Part shown: piece by piece, positions 2,881 to 34,708 of the stretch | Layout: each line of letters begins with the position of its first letter | Position numbering within the stretch: position 1 is the first letter of the stretch | IMG/VR virus record: IMGVR_UViG_3300011244_000005 | Location: 1-37,484 of that record | Direction: 5' to 3' (one strand) | DNA from: a virus | DNA: 37,484 nucleotides | Notes under the pieces: generated by a model | The model's database searches: none | Told to the model about the DNA's origin: nothing | Seen by the model: the letters and a program-made list of their open reading frames with translations, nothing else | Made by a program: the position numbers and the translations under genes

Positions 2881-5800
2881 GGAGTGGTGCGGGCGACGGC
2901 TACGGTGATCGTGACGTCGTCGAAGAAGGCCTGGGAGTTGTGGTCGCTGGGACTGAAGACGTCGTAGATGGCAAAGCGGTAATACCAGGTGCTGGCCGGA
3001 GGTTGGGGAACGCTGAACGAAGTCTCGGAGCCGTCGTGGATGAGCTCGACGCCGGGAGGGAGATTGCCGTCGATTATCTCTACTTCGAAATCGGGATCGA
3101 GTGAGCGCCACATGGCGATGCCGGCATAATCGAGATCGCCCACGGCGGGCTCGATGAAGCGGTAGTCGATCCGGTCGGCGCCAACCTGAGCGGTGCCCCC
3201 CAGGGAATGGCTCTGCGGGTTGCTCACCAGTATTTCGAGCCAATCGGTGTAGCCGAGCGCGCCATCGTGCTTGCGGTAAACGGCGCGAACACCCCAATGA
3301 AATTCTCGGCGCCGGCCGTCGGTGGAGTTGACGTTCTCTTCGTAGGAAAAGATGTACTCGGGCACGGCGCTATTAGCGGTCCAGACGCTGTCGCCGGAAA
3401 CGGGATCGCGGGCGCGGAGTTCGAACCGGACAAACTGATCGGCAAACGGGCTCCCGCCGCCAACAGAGAGTCCGCCGGTATCGAGGGTGAGAAGGATGTT
3501 CTCGCCGGTGCCGCTGGCCGCGATGCGGTAGTAGAGCTCGTTATCCGGATTGAAAAGAATGGGAACGCCACCCGTGGGCGGAGTGGCGGATCCGGCCTGC
3601 ACCACGCCGACGAGGATGTTCTCGCCGGTGCCGGAAGCTAGGACGGTGTGCCAGAGCGCGGTGTCGGGATTCCAGACGGCCGGCGCGCCAGTGACCGGCG
3701 CAGTGAGCGATCCGGCAGCGCGAACGGCCGGCCCGATGATGTTTTCGCCGGTGCCGGTGGCAATGAGATCGTGCCAGAGGCCGGTGTCCTCGTTGAACGC
3801 GGCGGGCGGAACGCCAGGCACGCCGATGATGCCGAGGCCGGAGATGTCGTAGAGGCTCCAGCGGAAGCGCGGGTTGCGTCCCTCGAAAGTGTAATCCTCG
3901 CCCTGACCCCAGATCTCGAGGTTGTTCAGAAGGAACGGGCCATCGCCAAAGGTGTGGGCGATGGAGTCGGCCTCGGCCAGGTCGATATTCTGGGTTGCGG
4001 TGTAGGACTGGAGCTTGAAGTAAACGGTGGCGCCGGGATCGAAGATGGCGTGGCCGATCGCGTTGACTTGCGATCGGAAGACGAACCAAACTTCGTCATC
4101 GATCGAGTGAGCGGCCTGCACGCTGCCGTAGCAGCCGCGGCGGAGGTAGACGCGGAAGCGGCCGTCGCCGAGCGCTTCAATCTCGCCCACGGACATGATC
4201 TCGTTCCCAGCCCAGACGAGGAGGGTCATGTCATCGCGCTGCTGATCGCTTTGGGAAACGATGGTGGCGAGGTCGCGCCCGTAGAGATCGACTACCATTC
4301 CGACCGTGGTATCGACGACGTCGGTGTCCTCGGGGTAATCTTCCGCTTTAATCTTGGCGCGGACGGCGAAATAGCTTTGCTGCTCCACCTGGTCGTAGGT
4401 TTCGTCGTCGGTGGAAACGTAGGTGCGGAACCCGATGACATGCGAACTGGGGCGCTCCGCCAGGATGGCGACCTGGATGCCGGCGGCGTCCTTGAGCGGA
4501 CTAGGGAGTTCGACGATGCGGGCGTGGGCGATCGCGAACGCTTCGATGTTGAAGTCTTCGTCCTTGGGCGCGGGCGGCTGAATGTAGATGTGATCCCAAT
4601 CGGCCAGCTCGACGATGTAATTGAGCTTGGCCAATCCCTCGCCGGCCGCCGGACCCTTCTTGTTCGTGCAACGCATGAGCATCGTTAGGCCAAAGCTGGT
4701 GGAGAGAAGTTTGAATCGCTCGCCGGGGAGGAGGTCGCGGACGCTTTCCCAGAGGAAGCCATTGGAGCCGGACCCGCCGCCGACCGAGCCGAGCATCATC
4801 CCGCGCTCGGTGACGAAACGCTGGGCGAGTTGCGGATCGATGATATCATCACGCCGCTGGCGGTCTGGCCGAATCTCGCCCTCCTCGTCGTCACCCACTT
4901 TCAACATTTCGATGGCAGCCAAGTGGCGGTAGCTCTCAGTGTCATCGGTGAACCATTTTAGACGATTGGGGAAGACGACATCGAAGTGGGTTTTGATGTC
5001 CTCGTCGGTGCCAGGTGTGATGTTCGGTTCGCCGCCAGCGATGTCGTTGCTGTCGAGCTCCAGGAGACCTTCCTGATCGATGTCGCCGTGGTCGAAGTAG
5101 CCGGCCTTAAGGACCGAACCGTCGCGGCAGAAAAAGCCGTCGTAATTCTCCAGGAAACCGGCAGCCCAGGCACGGACTGGCTTGGCTTCGCGCAAGACCG
5201 GGGCGACGTAGATGCCGGAAGTGTTCAGGCTGTTCTTGGTGGCGATGAAGCTGGCGCTATCGAGCGCGCTTTCGGGCATACCGGCGCCAATTAACTTGTC
5301 AGTGAGAAGCTCGTACGCAGGGCCCATCGGGTTGACGCCGGCGACGGTGGTCTCGAGGCGGGTGTCGCCGAAGAATTTGCAGCCGCGGGCGAGGACGGCC
5401 GCCACGTTCGGCATGTTAGGCGAACTGCCGAGGAAGAAATTCTTGAAGACGAAATAGCAATTGTTGCGATAAGCCGGATGGAAATCGTAGTGGCCGGCGT
5501 AAGGATTCGCGACGCCTGGCGGCGGGTCATCGCCTTCCCAAGGCTCGCCTTCGGCATCGAGCGCGGGCCAGGTGGAAATGACGCGCGGATCCACGCCGGG
5601 CGGAACCACGGACTGGCGCGGGTAGAGGATGAGGTTATCGGTGGGCGAATCTTTCGTGCCCCAATAGACGCGGGCTTGCTGGCAATAGGTATCGAGGGTG
5701 AGCGCGGCATAATGGGCTCCACCGCTCCGGGCGAGCGGACCGGTGAAAGCGATTTCGTCGTTCACGAGGACGTAGAGACAGAAATCGACCGGGGCATCGT

Positions 5801-6059
5801 TCGGGCAGATGCAAGCGACGCCAGCGATATCCGCGTACCAATTATCCTTCGAGCCTGATGCGCCGACGCCTTTCTTGCCGCCCTGGCCGCCACTGGTGAC
5901 CTTGTGGAGGTTGTACATCGGCGAGATCCACGTAAGAGCGAGTTTGGCGACGCCGGCGAAGTACGGGACCGGAACGGCTTCCTGGTTGGAGGAAGTGTCG
6001 TAGCCGGAGATGTTCTTCAGCTTCTTCGGCGTTACCGGTTGCGCTGTCTGGCCGATCAT
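2877..6059 (-). CDS. Tail tip / central hub protein (gp15- and J-like)
   Basis: 1060 residues, the size of a host-specificity or central hub protein. Around residues 600-670 it has a segment ending in VYLRRGCYGSVQAAH, like the R-G-x-x-G-[ST] region of the GTA gp15/Phage-tail_3 group. The C-terminal half contains three repeats of about 40 residues and then fibronectin-like beta segments. The NlpC/P60 hydrolase and fused hub gene directly upstream (ATGA overlap at 6056-6059) and the fibre gene directly downstream (ATGA at 2877-2880) give the standard tail-tip order. It probably forms the tip that the fibre attaches to and that crosses the envelope. Family assignment rests on motif and context, not a search. 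Confidence 0.75.
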   Translation of the reverse strand: MIGQTAQPVTPKKLKNISGYDTSSNQEAVPVPYFAGVAKLALTWISPMYNLHKVTSGGQGGKKGVGASGSKDNWYADIAGVACICPNDAPVDFCLYVLVNDEIAFTGPLARSGGAHYAALTLDTYCQQARVYWGTKDSPTDNLILYPRQSVVPPGVDPRVISTWPALDAEGEPWEGDDPPPGVANPYAGHYDFHPAYRNNCYFVFKNFFLGSSPNMPNVAAVLARGCKFFGDTRLETTVAGVNPMGPAYELLTDKLIGAGMPESALDSASFIATKNSLNTSGIYVAPVLREAKPVRAWAAGFLENYDGFFCRDGSVLKAGYFDHGDIDQEGLLELDSNDIAGGEPNITPGTDEDIKTHFDVVFPNRLKWFTDDTESYRHLAAIEMLKVGDDEEGEIRPDRQRRDDIIDPQLAQRFVTERGMMLGSVGGGSGSNGFLWESVRDLLPGERFKLLSTSFGLTMLMRCTNKKGPAAGEGLAKLNYIVELADWDHIYIQPPAPKDEDFNIEAFAIAHARIVELPSPLKDAAGIQVAILAERPSSHVIGFRTYVSTDDETYDQVEQQSYFAVRAKIKAEDYPEDTDVVDTTVGMVVDLYGRDLATIVSQSDQQRDDMTLLVWAGNEIMSVGEIEALGDGRFRVYLRRGCYGSVQAAHSIDDEVWFVFRSQVNAIGHAIFDPGATVYFKLQSYTATQNIDLAEADSIAHTFGDGPFLLNNLEIWGQGEDYTFEGRNPRFRWSLYDISGLGIIGVPGVPPAAFNEDTGLWHDLIATGTGENIIGPAVRAAGSLTAPVTGAPAVWNPDTALWHTVLASGTGENILVGVVQAGSATPPTGGVPILFNPDNELYYRIAASGTGENILLTLDTGGLSVGGGSPFADQFVRFELRARDPVSGDSVWTANSAVPEYIFSYEENVNSTDGRRREFHWGVRAVYRKHDGALGYTDWLEILVSNPQSHSLGGTAQVGADRIDYRFIEPAVGDLDYAGIAMWRSLDPDFEVEIIDGNLPPGVELIHDGSETSFSVPQPPASTWYYRFAIYDVFSPSDHNSQAFFDDVTITVAVARTTP
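3490..3830 (-). repeat. Three in-frame repeats of 40-41 codons in the tail tip gene
   Basis: The block encodes three units, each with a [FW]N-x-D-[TN]-x-L-[WY] core followed by ASGTGENI or ATGTGENI. The shared DNA segment encoding Gly-Glu-Asn-Ile recurs at 3495, 3615 and 3738, giving spacings of 120 and 123 bp. The units differ at many codons, so this is an old duplication or a recombination-prone array. Copy number may vary between relatives. Confidence 0.75.
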
Positions 6060-6709
6060 GGAACCACCTCCTCGCTGCGCTCGCGAATAGTCACAGGTGT
6101 CTCGACTTCGCTCGACATGACAACAGGGAGGGCTCTCGCCCGGAAGGCGGCGACCAGATGCTCGCGATAGTTTCGAGCGTCGATAGTGGCTTCAGTAACG
6201 CCGTCAGGTGCTGCGCAATGAATGGCGGCGGTGCCGCGCATCATGATGAAGAGATGATAGAGACCCTTCCCGGTTTTCAGGATGCAGATGTCGCCCGGCA
6301 TCACGGGGATCGGATCCGAGCTTGTGAAATCAAATTCACGAATTTCGTTCGCGTCGAGCTCGGCGAAGTGGGCGGCCAGGACCGCGCTCTGCGAATCATC
6401 GTCGAGGCCGCGAAAATAATTGACCATGCGCTCATTGAGGACGTGGCGGGAAATGTCGCGCTTTCTCCGCTCGAACTTAAATTTCGGAACGACGCCGGAT
6501 TCGAACATCACGATCTCGGGGAGAGCGCTGCAATCCATCCCGCCAGTCTTGCCCTTGGCGCGGCTACCGAAATGCCATGGAGTGCCGAGGCAGGAGTCGC
6601 AGGAGGCGAGGAGGCGATCGACGGCAACGGGGTCGTCGAAATACCATGGGTCGGATCGATCACGAGCAGGAGCAAGATCACGAGCAGGAGTGGGATTCGC
6701 TTCGCTCAT
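6056..6709 (-). CDS. NlpC/P60-type tail peptidoglycan hydrolase
   Basis: 217 residues. A papain-like NlpC/P60 fold is indicated by LGTPWHFGSRAKGKTGGMDC, where Cys60 in the D-C-S motif is the expected nucleophile, and by MPGDICILKTGKGLYHLFIM around 137-156, where His152 is the expected base. This matches the gp14-type hydrolase of gene transfer agents and siphophages, which opens peptidoglycan locally during DNA entry. ATGA overlaps on both sides tie it to the hub gene upstream and the tip gene downstream. The last 20 residues (VMSSEVETPVTIRERSEEVV) look like a variable tail. Confidence 0.8.
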   Translation of the reverse strand: MSEANPTPARDLAPARDRSDPWYFDDPVAVDRLLASCDSCLGTPWHFGSRAKGKTGGMDCSALPEIVMFESGVVPKFKFERRKRDISRHVLNERMVNYFRGLDDDSQSAVLAAHFAELDANEIREFDFTSSDPIPVMPGDICILKTGKGLYHLFIMMRGTAAIHCAAPDGVTEATIDARNYREHLVAAFRARALPVVMSSEVETPVTIRERSEEVVP

Positions 6710-8838
6710 CCTTTCTTGCCTCCAGCGTTGTGGGCGACTTCGCCGATGTTGGTGCTCGGGTCCTTGATCGGCATGTAGGGATAGCCACGGAAATTTTCGG
6801 CACTGCCGGCCATGGCGATGAATTGCTCGAGGCTGCCGTTAGTGCCGGGATAGAGAGTGATGGCCTGGGCGTCGACGGCGTTCCAGAAACGTTTGTTGAC
6901 CGTGATCTCGAGGCGGCCGGAGCCGTTCACTTCGGAATGGAGAATGGGGCGGCGCTCGAAGTTCGCGCCGACGCCGGTGGCGCAATAGCCGGGGGCGAAG
7001 TAATCCTCGTCTTCGTCGGAGCCTTCGTTCAGCTCGATGACGGTGTTGTCATCCGGGTCGCCGCGGAAGGTGCAGGCGACGGCGAAATCTTCCTTATCCA
7101 CCCCGGAGTAGGGGGAGTAGATGGCGACGTTATCGGTCTTCTGGAAATAGACGCGCGGGATACGGCTATCACGGAACCAGCGAACAACCGCGCGCCAATC
7201 CTTGCCGGTCAAGTTGGGTTTAGTGACGCGGCCGGAGAAGAGGATTTTCGCGTAATCATCCTCGGGGTCGGCTGCGTTGATTTCGATGATCCGGAGGGAG
7301 AGCGGGCCTTCGAGGGTGTAAGGGAAAAGGCCGGCGAGCGGGTTGCCGGGAAAATTTCCGCCCCAGCTGGTGATCTCGCATTCTTCGCGCTCGAGTTTCA
7401 TGCCGCTCTCGGGGGAGCCGTGCGAGTAAGGGGCGGGTGTCCACGAAGCGGGGCCGGGCACGTCGATAAGGGGATCGTCGCTGGCGAAGGCGATTGTGTT
7501 CTCGTAGCTGGTGAAACGCTGGATCTGCGGGGTGGGCAGCTCTTTGGTGAACTCGTAAAGGTGAGCGGGCTCGATGACGTTGTCGGCGGGCGTGACGTAT
7601 TCGTCTGGCACCTCGACGAACTTGATTCGGCAGCGGGCGCGCTGCGGGGTGGCGTATTCCCAGGTGATCGACGGGCTGGCGAACCGGGCGAAAAGGAGAT
7701 GACTGAGCCGGGTTATCCGCCGGAGATGGGTCTCGGCAACGTCGACCTCCATGAAAAGGTTGTTGCCGAGAACGTGATCGATCTTCTTGGCTGAGACGAC
7801 GCCGGGCTCGATGAGGGCAATGTAAGGATCGCCGGGGTGGATCGGACGATCCGGGTCCGAGTAAGCGTTCGATTCGACGGGAATCACATCCTCGCTCCCG
7901 GCCTGTGGAAGATCGGCCGTGATGACCATGTCCTGCCGGAAGGTGGGGACCATGAAGGGCTTCACGGGCCCGAGCCGGTTCATGAAGAGGTTTTCCGCTT
8001 TCGCGATCTCGGCGCGCGAGCGGCAAACGATTTCGAACTCAAGCCCTCGCCGGTTCGACTGGAGATAGGTGTAACTTTGTTCCTGGCGGAGGAACCCGAG
8101 CTGGCGGTAGATGATGTCCACCTCCGTCGTGTCGAGGACGCTCACCCAATTCGGCTCGATGTCCCAGACCGGGGTGGTGATGAAATTCGGGACCGCGAGG
8201 CCGCAAATCTGGTGGGCGACCGGATAGACGTTGAGCTTGCGCGCGTAGGTCGAATCCTCGCGAATCTTGAGAGCGCCCTCGACTTTTTGCGGAGTGCGTG
8301 AATCGAGCGTCGGACGTTCCTCGAGGCGACCGAAGAGGAGCGGATAGATGAGCGTGCCGGCGGGCCAGGCGAGGGTGGTGCCTGGCGCGGAAAGAGTAAG
8401 CGTGCTCGAGCTGATGGCGGTGACGGTGATGATCTCGTAAGTCCAGGCGTTCCAGGTAGCGGGTTCGGGGGCGAGGATGATCCACTCGGCGCCAGAGCGG
8501 ACGGGATTGTCGGATGTCTTTTGCAGAGTCGTTGCACCGATGATGCAGGCGCTCGACAGCTTGATTGCATCGTCCCAGAGCGGAACGGCGACAGGTTCGT
8601 CCTTGAGTCTCGTTAGGCCCTGGCGGAATTCGGTAGCGAAGCCGGCGTCCTTAAACCAAGGCGTGTACTCGAGGATGTAACGGGAGCTGCGGCCAAAGGT
8701 GCGGCGCTGTTCGCGGGCGCCGATGGCGGTCTCGATGTCAGTGAACGGAAGCGACGCCGTGATGCGCGGCCGAATTCGGCGATTCGGCTGAGCAAGAATT
8801 AGCGCGGTCGTTTCGCCGCCATAGTCAATGAACTTCAT
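6706..8838 (-). CDS. Fused tail hub/baseplate protein (gp12-gp13-like, BR0599-type C-terminus)
   Basis: 710 residues. The C-terminal third resembles the DUF2163/BR0599 family: an FSGRVTKP segment, then VAIYSPYSGVDKEDFAVACT, then a long beta-rich end. The N-terminal two thirds (ALILAQPNRRIRPRITASLP, repeated aromatic beta segments) take the place where GTA-like tails have a separate gp12-type protein (DUF2460). Position between tape measure and NlpC/P60 hydrolase supports a fusion of the two distal-tail proteins. One Cys of the usual BR0599 pattern is Ser here (PYSG), so a metal- or disulfide-dependent feature may be missing. The start at 8838 leaves a 12-bp gap after the tape measure gene. 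Confidence 0.65.
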   Translation of the reverse strand: MKFIDYGGETTALILAQPNRRIRPRITASLPFTDIETAIGAREQRRTFGRSSRYILEYTPWFKDAGFATEFRQGLTRLKDEPVAVPLWDDAIKLSSACIIGATTLQKTSDNPVRSGAEWIILAPEPATWNAWTYEIITVTAISSSTLTLSAPGTTLAWPAGTLIYPLLFGRLEERPTLDSRTPQKVEGALKIREDSTYARKLNVYPVAHQICGLAVPNFITTPVWDIEPNWVSVLDTTEVDIIYRQLGFLRQEQSYTYLQSNRRGLEFEIVCRSRAEIAKAENLFMNRLGPVKPFMVPTFRQDMVITADLPQAGSEDVIPVESNAYSDPDRPIHPGDPYIALIEPGVVSAKKIDHVLGNNLFMEVDVAETHLRRITRLSHLLFARFASPSITWEYATPQRARCRIKFVEVPDEYVTPADNVIEPAHLYEFTKELPTPQIQRFTSYENTIAFASDDPLIDVPGPASWTPAPYSHGSPESGMKLEREECEITSWGGNFPGNPLAGLFPYTLEGPLSLRIIEINAADPEDDYAKILFSGRVTKPNLTGKDWRAVVRWFRDSRIPRVYFQKTDNVAIYSPYSGVDKEDFAVACTFRGDPDDNTVIELNEGSDEDEDYFAPGYCATGVGANFERRPILHSEVNGSGRLEITVNKRFWNAVDAQAITLYPGTNGSLEQFIAMAGSAENFRGYPYMPIKDPSTNIGEVAHNAGGKKG

Positions 8839-12642: not shown

Positions 12643-12678
12643 GACTCGATAGGCCGGATGGGTCCGATAGGACCGATT

Positions 12679-18557: not shown

Positions 18558-20138
18558 TTAAGCGACGATCACAGGAGGCGCGGCCACGCCGGCAGTGCCG
18601 ACAAGGATCCAGCCTTTGACGTCATCGACGTACTCGAGGTCGGCGATGTCGCCCGCATCGGCGAAAACGATCGAGGTGAAGCCGGTCTTCGTTGCCGGGG
18701 TGAGCGTGCCGTCGCCCCCATCGACTCCGAGCACCAGGTTGAGTCGCTGGCCGGGGACGCCATTAGCGAGAGTGAGCGCCTCGGCGCCGCCCGTGGTCAT
18801 CACCACAACGCGCGACGTGATCGGCACCGCGAGCGTGCCACCCGCTTTCACTGTGCCGCTCGTGGCGACGACGACCTTGAAAGGAACGCAATGCGCGATC
18901 GAGACCGGATCGCCCGCGGCCGCAACGGTAAAGCGGGATTTGCCGATCACCCAATAAACGCCAGCCACGGTGGGCAGCGTCTTGACTCGACCGAGCGTGC
19001 CGACGCCTGGCGTGAGCCAATCATCGACCGCGATGGCGGCTTCCGCGACGGCCGGGAGCGACTCTGGCCAGAGACCGAAGAGCGCGATGTTCTTTTTCAC
19101 CACGTCGACTTCGTCGGTGGCGATCTCATCGTTCAGCAGGATGCCGAGAGGCACGTCGCCCACGGCGGAAACCAGCTTGAAATGTCGATCGTCCGCGCCG
19201 CGCACCACCACGTAATTCTTCGTGGCGATCGCCGCGGTGCCATCGAGACTCGCCGTGCCGTGGCTGGTCTGTTGCGGGGTAAACACGACGTTCGTCGCGA
19301 GTGTGCGCCCTCGAAGTCGATGGGCGATCAACGCGAAGAACATTCCCACGCGGAACAAGGCTCGTCTGAATCGACTCACCGCTTCCCGCCGATAGCGCTG
19401 GCGGTTTTTCGCCAGCCAGGCACAAGCCGCGAAGGCCAGGGCCAGGGCGCAGATGACTTCGACCCATCGCACTGCATCAACCGTGAGATATGCCAGGAAG
19501 GCCGCGGGCATCGGGCTGTAGGGAATCGCTGGGGCGATAACCTGGTCGGCCTGATGCAACGGCGTGCCATCCGAGACGAGCTCGAGCGGTGCGACACCGG
19601 CTTGCGCGGGCGACGCCGCGCCGAAGAACAGCGTGCAGCACAGCGCGACAAGCACGGCTTTCGCTGCGGAGCTGATCGCCTTGATTATGTCGGCCTTCTT
19701 CGTCGCGCCCTTCAGATCGTAGCCGTTCGTCGAGGCCAGTTCCGTGAGTTCGGCGACCGTCTTTGATCCGAGATCCACTTCTTCAGCCTCGCCGTCCGGA
19801 TGAGTCCGGAGTTTGAGGACTGTCTCGGTGGCCGGCCGTTCCTCGACGGTGGCGGTGACGCTGAGATGGTGGTCGCGCAGGTATTGCTGCTGCTCGGCAT
19901 CGATCGCCAGCTTCTCGGCGAGAAGCGGCTCGGTGCCGGCCGCGATCAAAGCCTTCTTGCGGGCGAGGACTTTGTCCGGATCGAGGTTGGTCGGAATTCC
20001 GACGGTGACGACAGGCGTCTCCGGCGGGAGAGTGCCTGGGATGGCAGGAGCTTCGTTGACCGCGAGCCCGCGACCGCAGAGGCGGTCAGCGAACGCGGCC
20101 AGCGCGCACCCGAGAACTAACAATTGTCTTTTAATCAT
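18558..20138 (-). CDS. Composite head protein: HeH-like domain, membrane segments and decoration (DUF2190-like) domain
   Basis: 526 residues in distinct parts. Residues 1-28 form a hydrophobic leader ending LAVN. Residues 124-156 (KTVAELTELASTNGYDLKG and onward) look like a SAP/HeH-LEM helix-extension-helix domain, common near phage capsid genes. Residues 161-180 resemble a second signal peptide (ending SPAQA), and 225-243 form a transmembrane helix followed by a basic Arg-rich stretch. From residue 284, directly after GRTLATN, the chain looks like a DUF2190-type capsid decoration protein (VVFTPQQTSHGTASLDG; FKLVSAVGDVPLGILLNDE). Cleavage after LATN by the prohead protease would release that domain. 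Membrane segments in a capsid-region protein are odd; an ancient gene fusion is an alternative. Confidence 0.6.
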   Translation of the reverse strand: MIKRQLLVLGCALAAFADRLCGRGLAVNEAPAIPGTLPPETPVVTVGIPTNLDPDKVLARKKALIAAGTEPLLAEKLAIDAEQQQYLRDHHLSVTATVEERPATETVLKLRTHPDGEAEEVDLGSKTVAELTELASTNGYDLKGATKKADIIKAISSAAKAVLVALCCTLFFGAASPAQAGVAPLELVSDGTPLHQADQVIAPAIPYSPMPAAFLAYLTVDAVRWVEVICALALAFAACAWLAKNRQRYRREAVSRFRRALFRVGMFFALIAHRLRGRTLATNVVFTPQQTSHGTASLDGTAAIATKNYVVVRGADDRHFKLVSAVGDVPLGILLNDEIATDEVDVVKKNIALFGLWPESLPAVAEAAIAVDDWLTPGVGTLGRVKTLPTVAGVYWVIGKSRFTVAAAGDPVSIAHCVPFKVVVATSGTVKAGGTLAVPITSRVVVMTTGGAEALTLANGVPGQRLNLVLGVDGGDGTLTPATKTGFTSIVFADAGDIADLEYVDDVKGWILVGTAGVAAPPVIVA

Positions 20139-27231: not shown

Positions 27232-27497
27232 GGCTGCGCGGCCTCCGGTGCGGGTCGAAGTGGCGGGCAATCGGCCGGCTTGTTTTCGGTCAGCTTGTCG
27301 ACGGCGGAGCTGGCCTTGTTCAAACCGTAGAGCGCGCTGATGAAGAGCGTGAGCCCGCCGAAGTCCGGCAGCGCGGCATTGACCCAAACGAGCCGCGTGA
27401 TCCAGACGAGCGCGGCGAGCACGAGCACTCCAGTCGCCAACCGAGTAAAGGAACCTTTGCCGTCCGATTCGCTGAGAGCGGATTTCAGGAAGCTCAT
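27228..27497 (-). CDS. Holin-like membrane protein
   Basis: 89 residues from an ATG at 27497 (ATGA overlap). The protein has a first hydrophobic helix LATGVLVLAALVWITRLVW and a second, weaker one, LPDFGGLTLFISALYGLNKA, with a short basic/polar N-terminus and a Pro-rich C-terminus. Size, topology and position beside an endolysin and spanin fit a holin. It opens the inner membrane so the endolysin or its substrate can be reached. Some annotated phage proteins of this type are not holins. Confidence 0.5.
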   Translation of the reverse strand: MSFLKSALSESDGKGSFTRLATGVLVLAALVWITRLVWVNAALPDFGGLTLFISALYGLNKASSAVDKLTENKPADCPPLRPAPEAAQP

Positions 27498-28162
27498 CTT
27501 TTTCCGAAGTACCCCTTGATGACGGACCATGAGAGTTTGCCGGTGACCAAAAGGACGATGACCAGGAGAACCAGCGCGCCGCCGCCGATCCTGAAAACCC
27601 ATTTGAAGATTTTTTCCTTTATCAGCTGGCTCTGCGCGTCGTAGCGCGCCTGGTCGCTTTTCGTCGCGACGATCGCGAGCTTCCCGGCGTCGGTGACATA
27701 CTGAGCCTGCCTGGTCTCGAGATCCTTCTTCGCTTCGAGGGTGGCCTTGTTCTCGACTCGAAGCTGCTCGTGCTCCTGCTGCGCGCCGGCTACGTGAGTG
27801 ACGATCTCTCCCGTGGCACTTTGCTGACGCTCGAGGCTGCCCTGGAGCTCCGTTACTTTTTCTCGCAACTCCGGCGGGACGAGGCCGGCGAGCTCGTTCA
27901 CCAGGTTGACGACCGTGGCGGACGCAGCCGCTTCAACGGCGGCGGCTTTTTGCGCGGCTTCGATGTGGACAGCAGCGCGCTCGGCCGTTTGCGAAGAGGT
28001 ATCGATCGCGTCGGATAAACGCCTGGCGGCCGCGTTCATCTTCGCCGGGTCCGGCGCTGAATGGATTCTCGGTTTGGCCGCGCAACCTGCGAGCAAGAGC
28101 GCCGCCAGCAGAACGAGATAAATCTTTTTTCTGGAGAGGAAGGTGACTACGGTCCCGATCAC
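27494..28162 (-). CDS. One-piece spanin-like lipoprotein (u-spanin candidate)
   Basis: 222 residues from the GTG at 28162, the only start that gives a complete lipoprotein signal. The N-terminus has a lipobox (ALLLAGC, Cys27) and should be lipidated and sent to the outer membrane. A long Ala/Gln/Glu coiled coil covers about residues 40-185, and a second hydrophobic helix lies at 192-207 (GALVLLVIVLLVTG). Lipid at one end and a transmembrane helix at the other is the architecture of unimolecular spanins such as phage T1 gp11, which fuse inner and outer membranes at lysis. It is larger than T1 gp11 (131 residues), and an ordinary lipoprotein remains possible. Confidence 0.55.
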   Translation of the reverse strand: MIGTVVTFLSRKKIYLVLLAALLLAGCAAKPRIHSAPDPAKMNAAARRLSDAIDTSSQTAERAAVHIEAAQKAAAVEAAASATVVNLVNELAGLVPPELREKVTELQGSLERQQSATGEIVTHVAGAQQEHEQLRVENKATLEAKKDLETRQAQYVTDAGKLAIVATKSDQARYDAQSQLIKEKIFKWVFRIGGGALVLLVIVLLVTGKLSWSVIKGYFGKR

Positions 28163-28248
28163 GCCGTGCAGACAACACGGCCACTCAAAAGGCCGCCAGA
28201 GCTGGATCGGCTAAATCGGCTAAATCGGCGTTAAGTTTGCAGAAACCG
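28163..28248 (-). promoter_or_regulatory. Intergenic gap before the lysis/late block with tandem repeat
   Basis: A non-coding gap of 86 bp. CGGCTAAAT occurs twice in tandem at 28208-28225, followed by CGGC to 28229, and CGGCC/GGCCG forms a small inverted repeat at 28178-28195. This is the natural place for a late or lysis promoter of the leftward block. I see no convincing -35/-10 pair, so an activator-dependent promoter would be expected. Confidence 0.35.
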
Positions 28249-28485
28249 TCAGATCACGCCCAAAGTGCCTGCGTTCTCGCGCTGATTCGGATCGTGATGG
28301 ATCGTTTGAATCAACGCGCCGGCCGCGTCGAAAATCTCGATGGTTGCCCGTTCCGATCCCGCGCGGTGGCGCGCGTAGGCGACCGCATAGTCGATATTGC
28401 CGTACCAGAGCCCGTCATGAGACAGCGCCTCGGATTGGAGATTGAACCCGTCGCCTTTCGGTCGCGGCTTGATCGTGAATTTCAA
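28249..28485 (-). CDS. Small DUF2188-like protein
   Basis: 78 residues. A beta strand MKFTIKPR, a helical part with IDYAVAYARHRAGSERATIE and a final strand IEIFDAAGALIQTIHHDP give the pattern of DUF2188-like proteins (short alpha-beta). It lies between the secreted-protein gene 28492-29010 and the lysis block. No function known. Confidence 0.45.
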   Translation of the reverse strand: MKFTIKPRPKGDGFNLQSEALSHDGLWYGNIDYAVAYARHRAGSERATIEIFDAAGALIQTIHHDPNQRENAGTLGVI

Positions 28486-28491
28486 GCGAGC

Positions 28492-29010
28492 CTAACGACC
28501 GCGCCATTTTACGGCGGTGGCGCCGGCGTAATAGGGGACTGGCCCTCGCTCATGGGGCAGCAGGACTAGCGCGTCCGCCTGGCGAAGCCGTGAAATTTCG
28601 ATCAACAGTTTGATGGCAGCTGAGCGTGGATCTGCATCGTACGGACGGAACCGGACGTAAGCAAAGCCCAAGACGTCGTACTGGCGGTCGGGATGAGTCT
28701 TATAAACCGGCATAGAGAAATTCGGGAGCAACACGGGCTTTGGCACAATAGGCCAGGCGGCAGCCTGAGCGCCTGGGTAATCGACAAACTGCGTGGCCTG
28801 GCCGGGTGAGTCTTCAACGTTCTCGAGGGCCTTGCCTTTCTTCGCGGGAACATGCTCGCTCGCCGGCCGATCGTTGGTTGCACGAGCTGCAGTAACAACG
28901 CCGTTTTTCTTCGTGGGAATAAAGACTTGCTCGGTTGATTTTGGATCCGAGCGCTGCGCAGAGACCGACTGCGCGAGCAGGGACATAACAATGAACACGA
29001 GTGTTCTCAT
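28492..29010 (-). CDS. Secreted protein, lysogeny-operon candidate
   Basis: 172 residues. Residues 1-19 are a signal peptide (MRTLVFIVMSLLAQSVSAQ). The first half after it is Lys/Thr/Ala-rich; the second half is more structured (SMPVYKTHPDRQYDVLGFAY, VRFRPYDADPRSAAIKLLIE). It is 9 bp after the lipoprotein gene, itself coupled to the repressor, so it may be expressed in lysogens. Envelope function, perhaps blocking superinfection, is an inference. No family recognised. Confidence 0.55.
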   Translation of the reverse strand: MRTLVFIVMSLLAQSVSAQRSDPKSTEQVFIPTKKNGVVTAARATNDRPASEHVPAKKGKALENVEDSPGQATQFVDYPGAQAAAWPIVPKPVLLPNFSMPVYKTHPDRQYDVLGFAYVRFRPYDADPRSAAIKLLIEISRLRQADALVLLPHERGPVPYYAGATAVKWRGR

Positions 29011-29019
29011 TTCGTGTGA

Positions 29020-29508
29020 CTACTCCGGAGTGAGAATTACTCGAATCGATTGCCCGGCTGAAACGTGAACCTTCTTGTGTACGGCCGCGCCAGTTTGAGT
29101 GACGAAATAACCGGTTGGAACACCCCAGGATATTTGCGACACCAGGTAATAGTTGCCCGCCGGCAAACCAGCGAACTCGAAGTTACCACTTCCGTCCGCC
29201 AGAACCATTTTCGAGTGCTGCATCATGCGTTGGTCGCCAGCCTGCATTGGCTTTCCTTGCTCAAAGCTTGTGCGATACCACTCCGTCGTCATGGAAGTCA
29301 CCGGGTACAGCCACACACGATTGCCGGCAGCGAATTTCACGTCTCCTCCAACTGTTTTGGCGAACGCCTGGCCTGAAATCTTGGCAGTCCCTGAGCCCGC
29401 GTAGGGCGCGTACTCCGCTGAGTCGTATTTTGCGATGCGTGGCTGTTGAGGGACGGCGCAGCCGACCAGTGCCAACGCGATCAAGGTGAGGAACAGTTTT
29501 GTTTTCAT
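29020..29508 (-). CDS. Lipoprotein coupled to the repressor gene
   Basis: 162 residues. The lipobox ALVGC (Cys17) ends a typical lipoprotein signal peptide. A beta-sandwich domain follows, with GTAKISGQAFAKTVGGDVKF, MVLADGSGNFEFAGLPAGNY and HKKVHVSAGQSIRVILTPE; the G-x-F-x-[FI]-x-x-[LI]-P-x-G-x-Y pattern is that of the carboxypeptidase-regulatory-like fold. The start overlaps the repressor stop as ATGA, so it is probably translated with the repressor in the prophage state. Lipoproteins co-expressed with phage repressors often exclude superinfecting phages; that role is inferred here. Confidence 0.65.
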   Translation of the reverse strand: MKTKLFLTLIALALVGCAVPQQPRIAKYDSAEYAPYAGSGTAKISGQAFAKTVGGDVKFAAGNRVWLYPVTSMTTEWYRTSFEQGKPMQAGDQRMMQHSKMVLADGSGNFEFAGLPAGNYYLVSQISWGVPTGYFVTQTGAAVHKKVHVSAGQSIRVILTPE

Positions 29509-30431
29509 AGCTCAACTTTCTGGGTGAGGCCGACCGGGTAAATCCAAACGAGATCGCGTTCGGGGTACCGCAGCGGCTGGTAGTTTGGGTTCATGGAGTG
29601 GAAGATGACCTCGCCTGTCGCGATCTGGAGGCGTTTAAAGAGGACGCTACCGTCGCGCAGCTTCGCGATGACCAGATTGTCGTTCTTCGGTTTGTGGCTC
29701 GGGTAACAAATCGCGATCGTGCCCTCGCTGTATTGCGGCGCCATGCTGTCGCCTCGGATCCGGACCGCGAACGCGCGCGGGTCCTTCCCGTCGTATGCGA
29801 GGACGCCCTCATAATCGTAGACGTCATCGAACTCAACGAGCTCGCCCGCTTGAGCCATAGAGATGAGCGGAATGTTTCGCGGCTTGATATTGTCCGTGGT
29901 CGCCACGTCCGGGCTCGCTCCAAACGCGCGATGTCCTGGGCCGAGGCTGGGCGGAAGGTCGGCGCCTCCCATTAACGCTTCCGGCTCGAGCTTCAGTGCG
30001 GCCGCCAGCTTGCGCAGCTGCTTCTCGTTTGAGCCTTGAACGTCGCCGGCTTCGATCTGCCGAATGTAGGCGGCCGGGACCTTCGACAGTTTCGCGAGAT
30101 CCTCGATCGTGAGTTTCATTTCTTCGCGCTTCCTCTTTAAGAGGGCGCGCGGGCTGGAGTCCGAATACTTCGCCTCCCCGACAACTAGCGCGTCTGGCGT
30201 CTCCGCGACAATGTCGGCGCGATCATGCTCACTTTTGAGCGTATCGCCAATAGGCGAGCTCTCGAGGAGTTGTAATTTCTTCTGGAACTTCGGCCCCGGC
30301 TCTTTGCCTCCTTCCACCATGGAAATGTAATTCCTGTCGTAGCCAAGAGCGTCAGCAAGCTCCTGCTGCGTCCACCTTCGGCGCGCCCGGAGCATTCGCA
30401 CCCTTTCCGAAATATTTAGCTTTTCGCTCAC
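29505..30431 (-). CDS. LexA/cI-type repressor with two HTH domains
   Basis: 308 residues from a GTG at 30431; an ATG at 30497 is possible but would run through the control region. HTH1 covers about 10-54 (RRRWTQQELADALGYDRNYI) and HTH2 about 96-148 (KLTIEDLAKLSKVPAAYIRQ). The C-terminal S24 peptidase half has the catalytic Ser229 in RGDSMAPQYSEG and Lys266 in GSVLFKRLQ, with Ala195-Gly196 as a likely LexA-type cleavage site. It should silence the early genes and self-cleave on DNA damage. Two HTH domains in one repressor are unusual; they may read two operator types or one long site. Confidence 0.8.
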   Translation of the reverse strand: MSEKLNISERVRMLRARRRWTQQELADALGYDRNYISMVEGGKEPGPKFQKKLQLLESSPIGDTLKSEHDRADIVAETPDALVVGEAKYSDSSPRALLKRKREEMKLTIEDLAKLSKVPAAYIRQIEAGDVQGSNEKQLRKLAAALKLEPEALMGGADLPPSLGPGHRAFGASPDVATTDNIKPRNIPLISMAQAGELVEFDDVYDYEGVLAYDGKDPRAFAVRIRGDSMAPQYSEGTIAICYPSHKPKNDNLVIAKLRDGSVLFKRLQIATGEVIFHSMNPNYQPLRYPERDLVWIYPVGLTQKVEL

Positions 30432-30498
30432 TTTTTTGCTTGCAGGGGGTCCGCGAGATGCTAAAAAGTTATCACTCGCTAACCACAGAATAAGCACC
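30432..30498. promoter_or_regulatory. Divergent operator/promoter region between repressor and Cro-like gene
   Basis: A 67-bp gap between two divergent GTG starts. GCGAG (30453-30457) and CTCGC (30475-30479) form an inverted repeat with a 17-bp spacer, a candidate operator. For the rightward promoter TTGCAG (30440-30445) and TAAAAA (30462-30467) with 16-bp spacing are a weak match to -35/-10 boxes. The leftward promoter is not clear. Confidence 0.45.
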
Positions 30499-30690
30499 GT
30501 GCGAAAAACTCCACAAGAAAAAAATTACTTCCGGATCGCGGTAATGAAAAAATTGCTTGATCGCGGACTGACCGTTACGGCCCTGGCCGGCCTGCTCGGA
30601 TATGCGCGCAACACCGTCAGCATGGTGATCAATCGCCGCCGCGCGTTCCCCGGAGTGAAAAAAGCGATTCGAGAGGAGCTCGGAGTCTAA
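30499..30690 (+). CDS. Cro/Ner-like transcription regulator
   Basis: 63 residues from a GTG at 30499. The HTH core is LDRGLTVTALAGLLGYARNT followed by VSMVINRRRAFPGV, close to the small Cro and Ner proteins that shut down early transcription in Mu-like and lambdoid phages. The upstream open frame to 30436 overlaps the operator region and was not taken. It is the first early gene, 2 bp before the next. Confidence 0.65.
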   Translation: MRKTPQEKNYFRIAVMKKLLDRGLTVTALAGLLGYARNTVSMVINRRRAFPGVKKAIREELGV

Positions 30691-30692
30691 CC

Positions 30693-30908
30693 ATGGATCT
30701 CCGCTCAGCCATGCGCCGCATCGTTGATAAAGGGACGCTGGACCTCAGCGACATGTCGGTCTGCGATCAGATTGCAATGCACCAGGCGGCAGCGATCGCC
30801 TTGCAGGAGGTCGACAAGGACGCGTCTGAAATTTCCGCCCATGCGGCGGAGCTGCTCCGCGAGACCGAACGGCACCAACTAAAATTCCGGGAGCTGCTGA
30901 GGTCATGA
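30693..30908 (+). CDS. Small helical early protein
   Basis: 71 residues, nearly all helical: MDLRSAMRRIVDKGTLDLSD and AAAIALQEVDKDASEISAHA, ending RHQLKFRELLRS. No family recognised. ATGA overlap with the following gene. Early-operon position suggests a regulatory or anti-host role without direct evidence. Confidence 0.5.
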   Translation: MDLRSAMRRIVDKGTLDLSDMSVCDQIAMHQAAAIALQEVDKDASEISAHAAELLRETERHQLKFRELLRS

Positions 30909-32611: not shown

Positions 32612-32951
32612 AGACGAATCCCACCTCGATTTCCTGCGCGTCGAGTCAATGCCGATCGAAATCGACGGGATTCGCTCACTTCTGATTGTCGCACTGAAGC
32701 AAGCCACGGTCGTGGCAACGCTCGAGCTGTTTCACCAGGATCAGCCAGCCGGCATCGCAGTGGTCCACAATTTTTTCGTCCGGTCCGAATGCCGCAAAAA
32801 AGGCATTGGCCGAAGACTGATGGAGCTGGCCGCGGATTTAGCTCGACGGGAAGGCTGCAGGGAAATGGCCCTGGGCGTCAATAAATCGAATGACGGCGCG
32901 ATCGAATTTTATCGCTCCGCCGGGTTCACCATCTGCGCAAAGGAACTATGA
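32595..32951 (+). CDS. GNAT-family acetyltransferase
   Basis: 118 residues, short for the family. Motif A is clear: FFVRSECRKKGIGRRLMELA (acetyl-CoA loop R-K-K-G-I-G at 67-72), followed by a late motif NDGAIEFYRSAGF (99-111). The first strands, usually substrate-specific, are short. I chose the ATG at 32595, which makes a 17-bp overlap with the gene before; the upstream frame to 32490 is not GNAT-like. Its stop overlaps the transposase start (32948-32951). Possible targets are a host or phage protein, a toxin or DNA (Mu Mom has a GNAT fold), but there is no Mom-like sequence. Confidence 0.72.
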   Translation: MNSEVKDESHLDFLRVESMPIEIDGIRSLLIVALKQATVVATLELFHQDQPAGIAVVHNFFVRSECRKKGIGRRLMELAADLARREGCREMALGVNKSNDGAIEFYRSAGFTICAKEL

Positions 32952-34708
32952 ACGAAGAGCTCCAAGGCACAAAGGCATGGCAGCGTAATCGCGCGCTTCT
33001 CTTGGATCGCGAGTTCAACGCGCTGGCGCGGCGGATCCAGCACGAGGGCGTCTTCATCGACCGCGGCTTGAAGGACCTGGCGAAACAGCTCCAGGGCGCA
33101 ACCGTGAACGCCGGCGCCCGGCCCAGCCGGAAGAAAGGCGGGCAACCTGAGCGAATCCTGAAAGTTCTCCGTTTGTCGAAGGGCACGCTGCGCCGCGAAT
33201 GGGACAAATGGAACGCGGGCGGCTGCACGCCCGACGCTCTCAAGCTCGATTACAAATACGTTCCGCCGAGAGATGGCAGCAAGACGCGGCTGCCGGAATT
33301 GCTCATCGCCGAGATTCAACGCCGCTGCACCCTCAAAACGGGCGGCCGCGATAAGAACGGATTGACGCCGGTCTCCGTGGTTTACCAGTGGCTCAAGAGC
33401 GATTTCGCCGAGGGCAAACCGATCCCCGGAATCAATTACGAAGATTACCCGGCCGGCGCCGAGTTCCCATATTCGGCAACGGCCGTGCGCAATTACGCGC
33501 CGTCGCGCGCGGCCCGCGCCTTTGGCAACCGCGGCTTCGCTGAGTTCAAGGCCAGGGCGTGCCATGTGACGATGGATTATTCGAAGCTGCGCAAGGGCGA
33601 GCTCTACACCCTGGACGACGCGCGGCTCGACTTGCTCTGCATTCATCACGCGACCGGGCGCGCCATCATCGTGCGCGTCTACCTGCTCATGGAAGTGGCG
33701 AGCCGAATGATCGTCGCCTGGCTCATCAAACCGATGGACGCGATCCGGCCGGAAGATGTGGACGAGCTGATTGCGCACGGACTGCAGACGCCCGGCTTCG
33801 GGATCGGTGTCGGTTACACCACCTACATCAAATTCGAACGCGGATCGACGCCATGCAGCGAAGCCGCGCAGATGACGCTGGAAGGTGTAACGGAAGGCCG
33901 GATCCAAATCATCCGCACCAGTATGAATGGCGGCGTGACCTGGGTCGGGGCCCCACAGGATGTCGCCAGCGGCCACGCGGCCGGCAAGGCGGTGATCGAA
34001 TCGTTCATCCGCCGGCTGCATTACGCGCTGCTCCATTTGCCTGGTCAGATCGGCAACAACTGGCGGAACACGCCGGCCAGCGTGGGATTCGGCAAAACGC
34101 CCGTGAAGGATCCGCTGAAACACGACGACCGGCGCACGCCGACGCTGGTCGCGGAAGCGGAGCGCCTGGCGCAATTCGTCTTGCTGATGCGAAAGAAGAA
34201 CTCGCGCACCCGGTTCAAGCTACAGCTGCCGATGCTTTACCTCCGCGAGGTGGAATGGGCAGTCCATCACGCGATCGAGAAACTGAATCACGAGCCTGGT
34301 CATGACTACGCGGACCACGGCGAATTCACTCAGGCGGAAGTCGAGCCTGGTGTCTGGAAAGATGTGGACGGTGGGGTGGCGGAATTGGCAGACGCGCCGG
34401 ATGCCGGTGTTGCGACGGCCGAGGTTGATCACTCGGAGACAGCAGTTCGTGCAGGTTCAAGACCTGCCCCCACCACAAAAAAAGTTTTCGTCCTGGACGC
34501 GCCGGCTGAACCGCTGACGCCCAAGCAGCGCAATGGAATGTATTGGCGCCTCTGGAAGGCGGCTGAGGCCGCACAGCCTGGCGTCAATCGGTTTGCCCTA
34601 ACAAGTCGCGTGCTGGGTCGCGTGAAGAAGATCACGGAGATGACCGACGAGGAATTTCTCAAGGTCTGTCACGTCTTTGAATCGATCGCGAAGAAAGGGG
34701 CGGAATGA
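32948..34708 (+). CDS. MuA-like DDE transposase, catalytic part
   Basis: 586 residues. The N-terminal ~200 residues are Arg/Lys-rich with helix-turn-helix-like segments that would bind phage ends. The RNase H-like catalytic core runs about 210-400: GELYTLDDARLDLL (Asp223/Asp224), YIKFERGSTPCSEAA (Glu297 where MuA has Asp336) and GKAVIESFIRRLH (Glu351 for MuA Glu392). Spacing is close to MuA. Thus the triad reads D-E-E. The usual C-terminal beta-barrel is missing here; a barrel-like gene follows about 1 kb downstream. A Pro/Gly-rich linker at 475-510 is encoded by a tRNA-Leu-like sequence, then a separate helical domain (LTPKQRNGMYWRLWKAAEAA and on) ends the chain. Confidence 0.82.
   Translation: MNEELQGTKAWQRNRALLLDREFNALARRIQHEGVFIDRGLKDLAKQLQGATVNAGARPSRKKGGQPERILKVLRLSKGTLRREWDKWNAGGCTPDALKLDYKYVPPRDGSKTRLPELLIAEIQRRCTLKTGGRDKNGLTPVSVVYQWLKSDFAEGKPIPGINYEDYPAGAEFPYSATAVRNYAPSRAARAFGNRGFAEFKARACHVTMDYSKLRKGELYTLDDARLDLLCIHHATGRAIIVRVYLLMEVASRMIVAWLIKPMDAIRPEDVDELIAHGLQTPGFGIGVGYTTYIKFERGSTPCSEAAQMTLEGVTEGRIQIIRTSMNGGVTWVGAPQDVASGHAAGKAVIESFIRRLHYALLHLPGQIGNNWRNTPASVGFGKTPVKDPLKHDDRRTPTLVAEAERLAQFVLLMRKKNSRTRFKLQLPMLYLREVEWAVHHAIEKLNHEPGHDYADHGEFTQAEVEPGVWKDVDGGVAELADAPDAGVATAEVDHSETAVRAGSRPAPTTKKVFVLDAPAEPLTPKQRNGMYWRLWKAAEAAQPGVNRFALTSRVLGRVKKITEMTDEEFLKVCHVFESIAKKGAE
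34370..34475 (+). tRNA. tRNA-Leu-like element inside the transposase gene (probable pseudo-tRNA)
   Basis: GGTGGGG (34370-34376) pairs perfectly with CCCCACC (34468-34474), with A as discriminator. T8-G9 follow, then a D arm GCG-GAATTGGCAGA-CGC (34379-34395) identical to common leucine tRNAs. The T arm GCAGG-TTCAAGA-CCTGC (34451-34467) is perfect. The middle is abnormal: CCGGATGCCGG (34397-34407) would be an anticodon stem with the loop reduced to three bases, followed by an unusually long variable arm with a CCGAG/CTCGG stem (34419-34436) and a weak outer stem TGTTG/CAGCA. No readable anticodon remains. It codes in frame for VAELADAPD, a peptide typical of leucine tRNA read as protein. Function, if any, unknown. 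Confidence 0.65.

Follow-up and report, generated by a model that had tools for sequence, protein, structure and literature searches.

A predicted PA1324-fold lipoprotein in an exchangeable slot downstream of the repressor gene of a transposable phage: a candidate superinfection-exclusion locus

Defence systems are known to be encoded next to prophage repressor genes; the best studied of them, rexAB and bstA, act inside the cell. The locus analyzed here raises the question of what genes in this position do when their products are exported: that is, whether a lipoprotein and a small secreted protein encoded directly downstream of a prophage repressor serve to exclude rival phages. The locus lies in a 37,484-nt stretch of viral DNA (hereafter, "the window"). 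Gene content indicates that the window is a temperate transposable (MuA-like) phage. The plus strand encodes a MuA-type transposase, which marks transposable, Mu-like phages (32948..34708; phrog_310, E = 2.2e-13; 69% and 66% identical to the transposases of sister phages L096 and L097), and, as the first early gene, a small divergent helix-turn-helix (HTH) protein resembling Ner and Cro (30436..30690; phrog_8, 2e-4; phrog_1468, 6.3e-4; HTH matches). The minus strand carries terminase, portal, head-protease, tape-measure, and tail genes. An open reading frame (ORF) on that strand with an endonuclease VII-like stretch (18558-20138; phrog_3281, 4.6e-9) adjoins the head-protease gene. The late or lysis side may begin, tentatively, with a gene for a 222-aa lipobox protein with a C-terminal membrane segment (27494..28162, minus strand), with weak matches both to phrog_8152 (5.5e-4) and to Rz-like spanins (0.016). 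A scan of positions 27400-30800 for sigma-70-type promoters returned none, and a scan of the same interval for terminators returned four terminator-like sites vs. 3.7 expected, none of them convincing.

The repressor gene (29505..30431, minus strand) encodes two HTH stretches and a Peptidase_S24 C-terminus (PF00717, 3e-18; HTH_3, 3.2e-16; phrog_4, 4e-39), and the protein is presumably of the SOS-cleavable type; its GTG start at 30431 is the assignment made in an earlier, sequence-only reading of this DNA. According to that reading, the start of a lipoprotein gene overlaps the repressor stop codon. The overlap can be read directly from the minus-strand junction, ...GAGCTATGAAAAC..., in which ATGA at 29508-29505 comprises both the ATG of the lipoprotein ORF (29020..29508) and the TGA of the repressor ORF, a 4-bp overlap. 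The gene for a signal-peptide protein was likewise said to follow 9 bp later, and does so: the lipoprotein ORF stops at 29020 and the next ORF starts at 29010. The lipoprotein gene thus lies directly downstream of the repressor gene on the same strand, the arrangement that characterizes the repressor-operon genes rexAB, bstA, and ltp (that is, repressor-operon "morons"). The identical ATGA junction is present in three related phages, L096, L097, and L100, each with different genes downstream, and the overlap is therefore more than chance. In L096 and L097, the repressor resembles that of the window in its C-terminal S24 half and diverges from it in the N-terminal HTH part, which is the pattern expected of heteroimmune phages.

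The 162-aa product of the overlapping gene carries the lipobox LVGC and matches phrog_14789 over residues 1-160 (E = 9.8e-42). In searches of the Protein Data Bank (PDB), it matches the two structures of Pseudomonas aeruginosa PA1324, 3qec and 1xpn, both as a single sequence (2.7e-9 and 4.1e-9) and as a nine-sequence family profile (3.4e-23 and 4.1e-23). An AlphaFold model made from a 21-sequence alignment has a pLDDT of 92.3, and a Foldseek search with that model retrieves 3qec (E = 3.5e-11; TM 0.73/0.81). We conclude that the lipoprotein is predicted, with a confident model, to have the prealbumin-like fold of PA1324; sequence, modelled fold, and the lipobox cysteine (Cys17, invariant across the 21-sequence alignment) all place it in the PA1324/phrog_14789 family. 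Its closest relative is a chromosomal gene of a Spartobacteria metagenome-assembled genome (MAG), 73% identical. Compared with a Spartobacteria chromosomal homologue, the window gene differs at codon positions 1, 2, and 3 in 40, 26, and 104 of 160 codons, respectively, a pattern from which purifying selection on the lipoprotein gene is evident at the sequence level. That neither exported protein resembles a known exclusion family, as had been claimed by eye, holds for named exclusion families and fails for families in general, given the phrog_14789 and PA1324 matches of the lipoprotein. PADLOC has no defence model matching either slot protein, Pfam finds no Imm_superinfect or other exclusion domain in them, NCBIfam has no name for the lipoprotein, and Foldseek against viral models gives only partial matches with low TM-scores. 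Our literature search, which covered titles and the starts of abstracts, found no phage-borne PA1324-like protein recognized as a described exclusion factor and no established function for PA1324. Its structure is listed in the PDB as a putative carbohydrate binding protein.

The second exported protein, of 172 aa (28492..29010, minus strand), is an orphan. By a crude Kyte-Doolittle rule it has an N-terminal hydrophobic segment and is signal-peptide-like. Pfam offers nothing for it at E<=1 and PHROGs only a weak match (0.073); tblastn against phages finds no match, and a single-sequence scan of viral contigs finds no relative. Its single-sequence structure model, with a pLDDT of 45, is not usable. 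The only match among 145 genomes of the phylum to which the Spartobacteria MAG belongs (L095, E = 0.0087) is antisense to a long membrane-protein-like ORF, and we read it as chance. The rest of the slot is filled by a 78-aa ORF with a TTG start (28249..28485, minus strand; Pfam matches only above E 0.09, PHROG matches only above 0.3), which is uncertain and possibly not a gene. In the gap between the slot and the lysis-side gene are three CCGAT boxes 9 bp apart (28206..28228, minus strand), the sole exact copy of this pattern in the window. The same exact pattern occurs upstream of the lysis-side gene in L096 (2420-2442) and L097 (3229-3251) and is absent from the related phages L099 and L100. 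The triple is a candidate slot boundary or late regulatory element, discussed here for the window, L096, and L097 alone because, among the matches listed, it was without specificity across viral contigs. Elsewhere in the window, two overlapping imperfect CCGAT-type repeats (12646-12677, plus strand; 1-2 mismatches) adjoin the 5' end of the tape-measure gene.

Comparison with four transposable phages (L096, L097, and the more distant L099 and L100, with transposases 49% and 46% identical to that of the window) and with L104 indicates that the content of the slot is exchanged. The four transposable relatives have other exported proteins in the slot, three of the four through the same ATGA overlap. 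L096 has a secreted protein followed by a second secreted protein; L097 has a lipoprotein, a membrane protein, and a secreted TonB_C protein. The first slot protein of each of these two phages is BamE-like below the cut-off only (13.3 and 13.7 bits vs. 23.2), so that BamE identity is rejected as an assignment and kept as a lead. The TonB_C protein of L097, encoded in the repressor operon (3373-3723; Pfam, 1.1e-10), might interfere with TonB-dependent receptors. L100 has a signal/membrane protein (6756-7367) with a C-terminal Imm_superinfect domain (PF14373; E = 2.3e-16; 59.9 bits vs. a cut-off of 27.9), its gene joined to that of the prophage repressor through the ATGA overlap; the protein resembles proteins in 813 phage records, several of them annotated "immunity to superinfection". 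In L099, 4 nt separate the repressor gene from the gene for a membrane-anchored protein. In L104, which has a similar repressor but is less closely related, a membrane-protein gene directly follows the repressor gene, and genes for a DUF6804 membrane protein and a lipoprotein come next. By the crude export rule, the gene immediately downstream of the repressor gene encodes an exported or membrane-bound product in 6/6 phages (the window and these five), which are not independent of one another; by the same rule, 6 of 29 window genes, including the two slot genes, encode such products. We conclude from these comparisons that an envelope slot with exchangeable content lies downstream of the repressor gene and is translationally coupled to it. 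The proposed repressor operon with two exported proteins is supported as regards the lipoprotein, which belongs to it by structure, and too simple as a whole: the second protein is an orphan, and the content varies between sister phages.

The PA1324-like family extends well beyond the window. Eighteen records of a phage collection match the lipoprotein, 17 of them Pseudomonas phages at ~44% identity. In each of three Pseudomonas records inspected, the gene lies directly after the repressor gene on the same strand, and in two of the three it lies between the repressor gene and an early-type operon; in the one Pasteurella phage record, it lies elsewhere, among tail and anti-repressor genes. Whereas a single-sequence scan of viral contigs found no relative, a profile scan found 108. 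Counts of loci given here refer to the best 80 of these 108 relatives, counts of lineages refer to 27 single-linkage clusters (70% identity over >=100 aa), and repressors were detected with a home-made S24 profile seeded from three repressors, which misses other repressor types. An S24 repressor gene of the same orientation lies no more than 150 nt upstream in 47 of the best 80 of 108 loci and in 5/27 lineages, counts biased towards repressor context by the seeds of profile A1, which included repressor-adjacent phages. Within 2.6 kb, the corresponding values are 59 of the best 80 of 108 loci and 11/27 lineages. Most of the 47 adjacent loci belong to two large clusters (24/27 and 20/21), and in 22/27 lineages no S24 repressor was detected directly next to the gene. 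In L091 and L093, the gene upstream of the lipoprotein gene encodes an HTH_35 protein (domain search done on L091). Homologues beside repressors in other temperate phages, the check proposed with the sequence-only reading, were thus found, in 3/3 Pseudomonas records and in the 47 loci.

A second site is seen in L042, L079, L081, and L087, where the lipoprotein gene lies directly, or one gene, before a tape-measure-like gene (Pfam-confirmed for L042), and in L015 it lies upstream of a tail-tip gene. Given the repressor-adjacent and the tape-measure-adjacent lineages, the family is a moron family with two favoured sites. In L078, a BamE-like lipoprotein gene (5456-5938; 1.5e-4, just below the cut-off) directly precedes a PA1324-like lipoprotein gene (5998-6507), and the pair lies downstream of a 1477-aa ORF. 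Thirty-five records of a plasmid collection match as well. Among the five inspected, a 110-kb Klebsiella plasmid with a tail-fibre gene and an Escherichia marmotae plasmid with portal and head genes look like phage-plasmids; the others are one more Klebsiella and two Pseudomonas plasmids, and a repressor is a listed neighbour of the lipoprotein gene in 0/5. The gene is annotated "carboxypeptidase-like regulatory domain" in L008, L010, and L009 (Klebsiella and E. marmotae plasmids), with phage genes near it in L008 and L009. By sequence, the family thus recurs in unrelated temperate phages and phage-plasmids. Chromosomal relatives are sporadic: within the phylum of the Spartobacteria MAG, the family model finds them in 3 of 145 genomes, and within its order, profile A6 finds them in 8 of 147. 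Two further contigs from the genome scan, L012 and L013, were rejected, matching at the N-terminal signal region only. The closest relative and this sporadic occurrence suggest, and do not prove, a Verrucomicrobiota host for the window phage.

The kind of locus is known, and the protein family and the slot architecture appear to be new. The genes rexAB and bstA lie downstream of cI, and the repressor promoter drives transcription of bstA (PMC7067206, PMC8585504). This "cI-n" hotspot resembles the window in having a gene directly downstream of a prophage repressor gene; BstA and RexAB are described as abortive-infection systems, whereas the window products are predicted to be exported to the envelope, with coupling through a 4-bp overlap. 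In Streptococcus thermophilus phage TP-J34, ltp is described as a lysogeny-module gene that has the same direction as the CI-type repressor gene and is transcribed in the prophage state (PMC3952083). Ltp is a superinfection-exclusion lipoprotein and, like the window lipoprotein, is encoded on the repressor side. However, it belongs to a phage of a Gram-positive host, one gene separates ltp from the repressor gene whereas the window gene overlaps it directly, and the window lipoprotein has no Pfam match to the Ltp family and has the predicted PA1324 fold instead. The Lpp lipoproteins of mEpimmI phages excluded phages when expressed in laboratory E. coli (PMC11893012). These are likened here by description, not sequence, as phage lipoproteins with a lipobox; they differ in that their genes are reported within the structural cluster, a location shared by only a few lineages of the window family. 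The domain of T4 Imm (Imm_superinfect, PF14373) is present in the slot of L100 but absent from the window's own proteins. PA1324, which shares family and predicted fold with the window lipoprotein, is by contrast chromosomal and linked to AlgU. It is well supported that the moron locus of the window is real and of a known kind; its lipoprotein family is one that the searches made do not recognize as exclusion-related.

How the slot would act can be outlined from its structure. The repressor mRNA would run on through the translationally coupled gene, and coupling would make the yield of envelope protein depend on translation of the repressor; envelope protein is accordingly expected whenever repressor is made. 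The coupled product would then be exported to the cell envelope: in the window, the PA1324-fold lipoprotein, probably sorted to the outer membrane, followed by the small secreted protein. We regard expression of the lipoprotein in the lysogen as very likely and, as a matter of judgement, an envelope role expressed in lysogeny as highly probable. In the lysogen envelope, the lipoprotein would most likely block related phages, possibly by covering a glycan or protein site required by incoming phages or, alternatively, by disturbing the periplasmic step of DNA entry. Such a lysogeny-expressed slot, its lipoprotein mediating superinfection exclusion, is our best single guess, with a probability of about 0.5. 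The presence of Imm_superinfect in the same slot of L100 is what makes exclusion at the envelope the best single reading, and the earlier proposal of an exclusion or conversion locus also draws support from the repressor-operon structure and from the occurrence of the family beside repressors elsewhere. The tape-measure-site lineages count for exclusion too, since active exclusion lipoproteins are encoded in the structural cluster of mEpimmI phages (PMC11893012). Also in favour are retention of the ATGA overlap in four phages whose downstream proteins differ, export of the first slot product in the six phages compared, and purifying selection on the lipoprotein gene. Against exclusion stand the 22 lineages not adjacent to a detected S24 repressor, the lack of a PADLOC match, the empty promoter scan and unconvincing terminators around the locus, and the biased profile seeds.

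The main rival is lysogenic conversion without exclusion, in which a PA1324-type stress lipoprotein helps the lysogen against envelope stress or binds a surface glycan, a possibility to be taken seriously though held tentatively. PA1324 is reported among the genes strongly induced by inhibition of lipoprotein transport (PMC7685553), is discussed as being under AlgU regulation (PMC6444534), and appears in a list of conserved proteins of outer membrane vesicles (PMC6347270); moreover, the 73% relative is a Spartobacteria chromosomal gene with no phage genes recognized in a neighbourhood of 7.8 kb. Because family members also occur on chromosomes (PA1324 and the sporadic genome relatives), the fold need not mean defence. 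However, the recurrence of the family at classic moron sites in many phage lineages, together with the Imm_superinfect domain in the slot of a relative, fits exclusion better. It is unlikely that the slot genes are instead the first genes of a late or lysis operon (for example, spanin-like genes) with the repressor gene as a mere neighbour: late genes on the same strand do follow, with no minus-strand terminator detected in the gap and with the weak spanin-like matches of the 222-aa lipobox protein, but the lipoprotein gene is coupled to the repressor gene by 4 bp, the Pseudomonas phage homologue lies between repressor gene and early-type operon, where the stretch inspected has no annotated lysis gene, and in three phages the slot and the lysis side are set apart by the gap with the conserved CCGAT triple. 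We consider it very improbable that the coupled start merely adjusts repressor translation or mRNA stability, the product hardly mattering; retention of the overlap while the product changes is what such tuning would predict, but the amino-acid constraint on the lipoprotein and the export of the first product in all six (non-independent) phages speak against it.

Beyond the window, superinfection exclusion by the slot lipoprotein admits a broader proposal, for which we would offer somewhat less than even odds: PA1324-fold lipoproteins would be an unrecognized exclusion family in temperate phages and phage-plasmids that span different groups of bacteria, and in this group of transposable phages the conserved ATGA junction would be a port at which heteroimmune phages swap proteins for envelope exclusion (PA1324-like, Imm_superinfect, TonB_C, possibly BamE-like), with immunity specificity exchanged alongside. 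The locus points to a repeated, modular placing of envelope proteins under repressor control. It also links PA1324, a protein of solved structure, to a wide range of phages, and a plating assay could thus probe what this protein does. A swappable envelope slot coupled to the gene for dormancy would probably bar rival viruses or otherwise alter the surface of the host.
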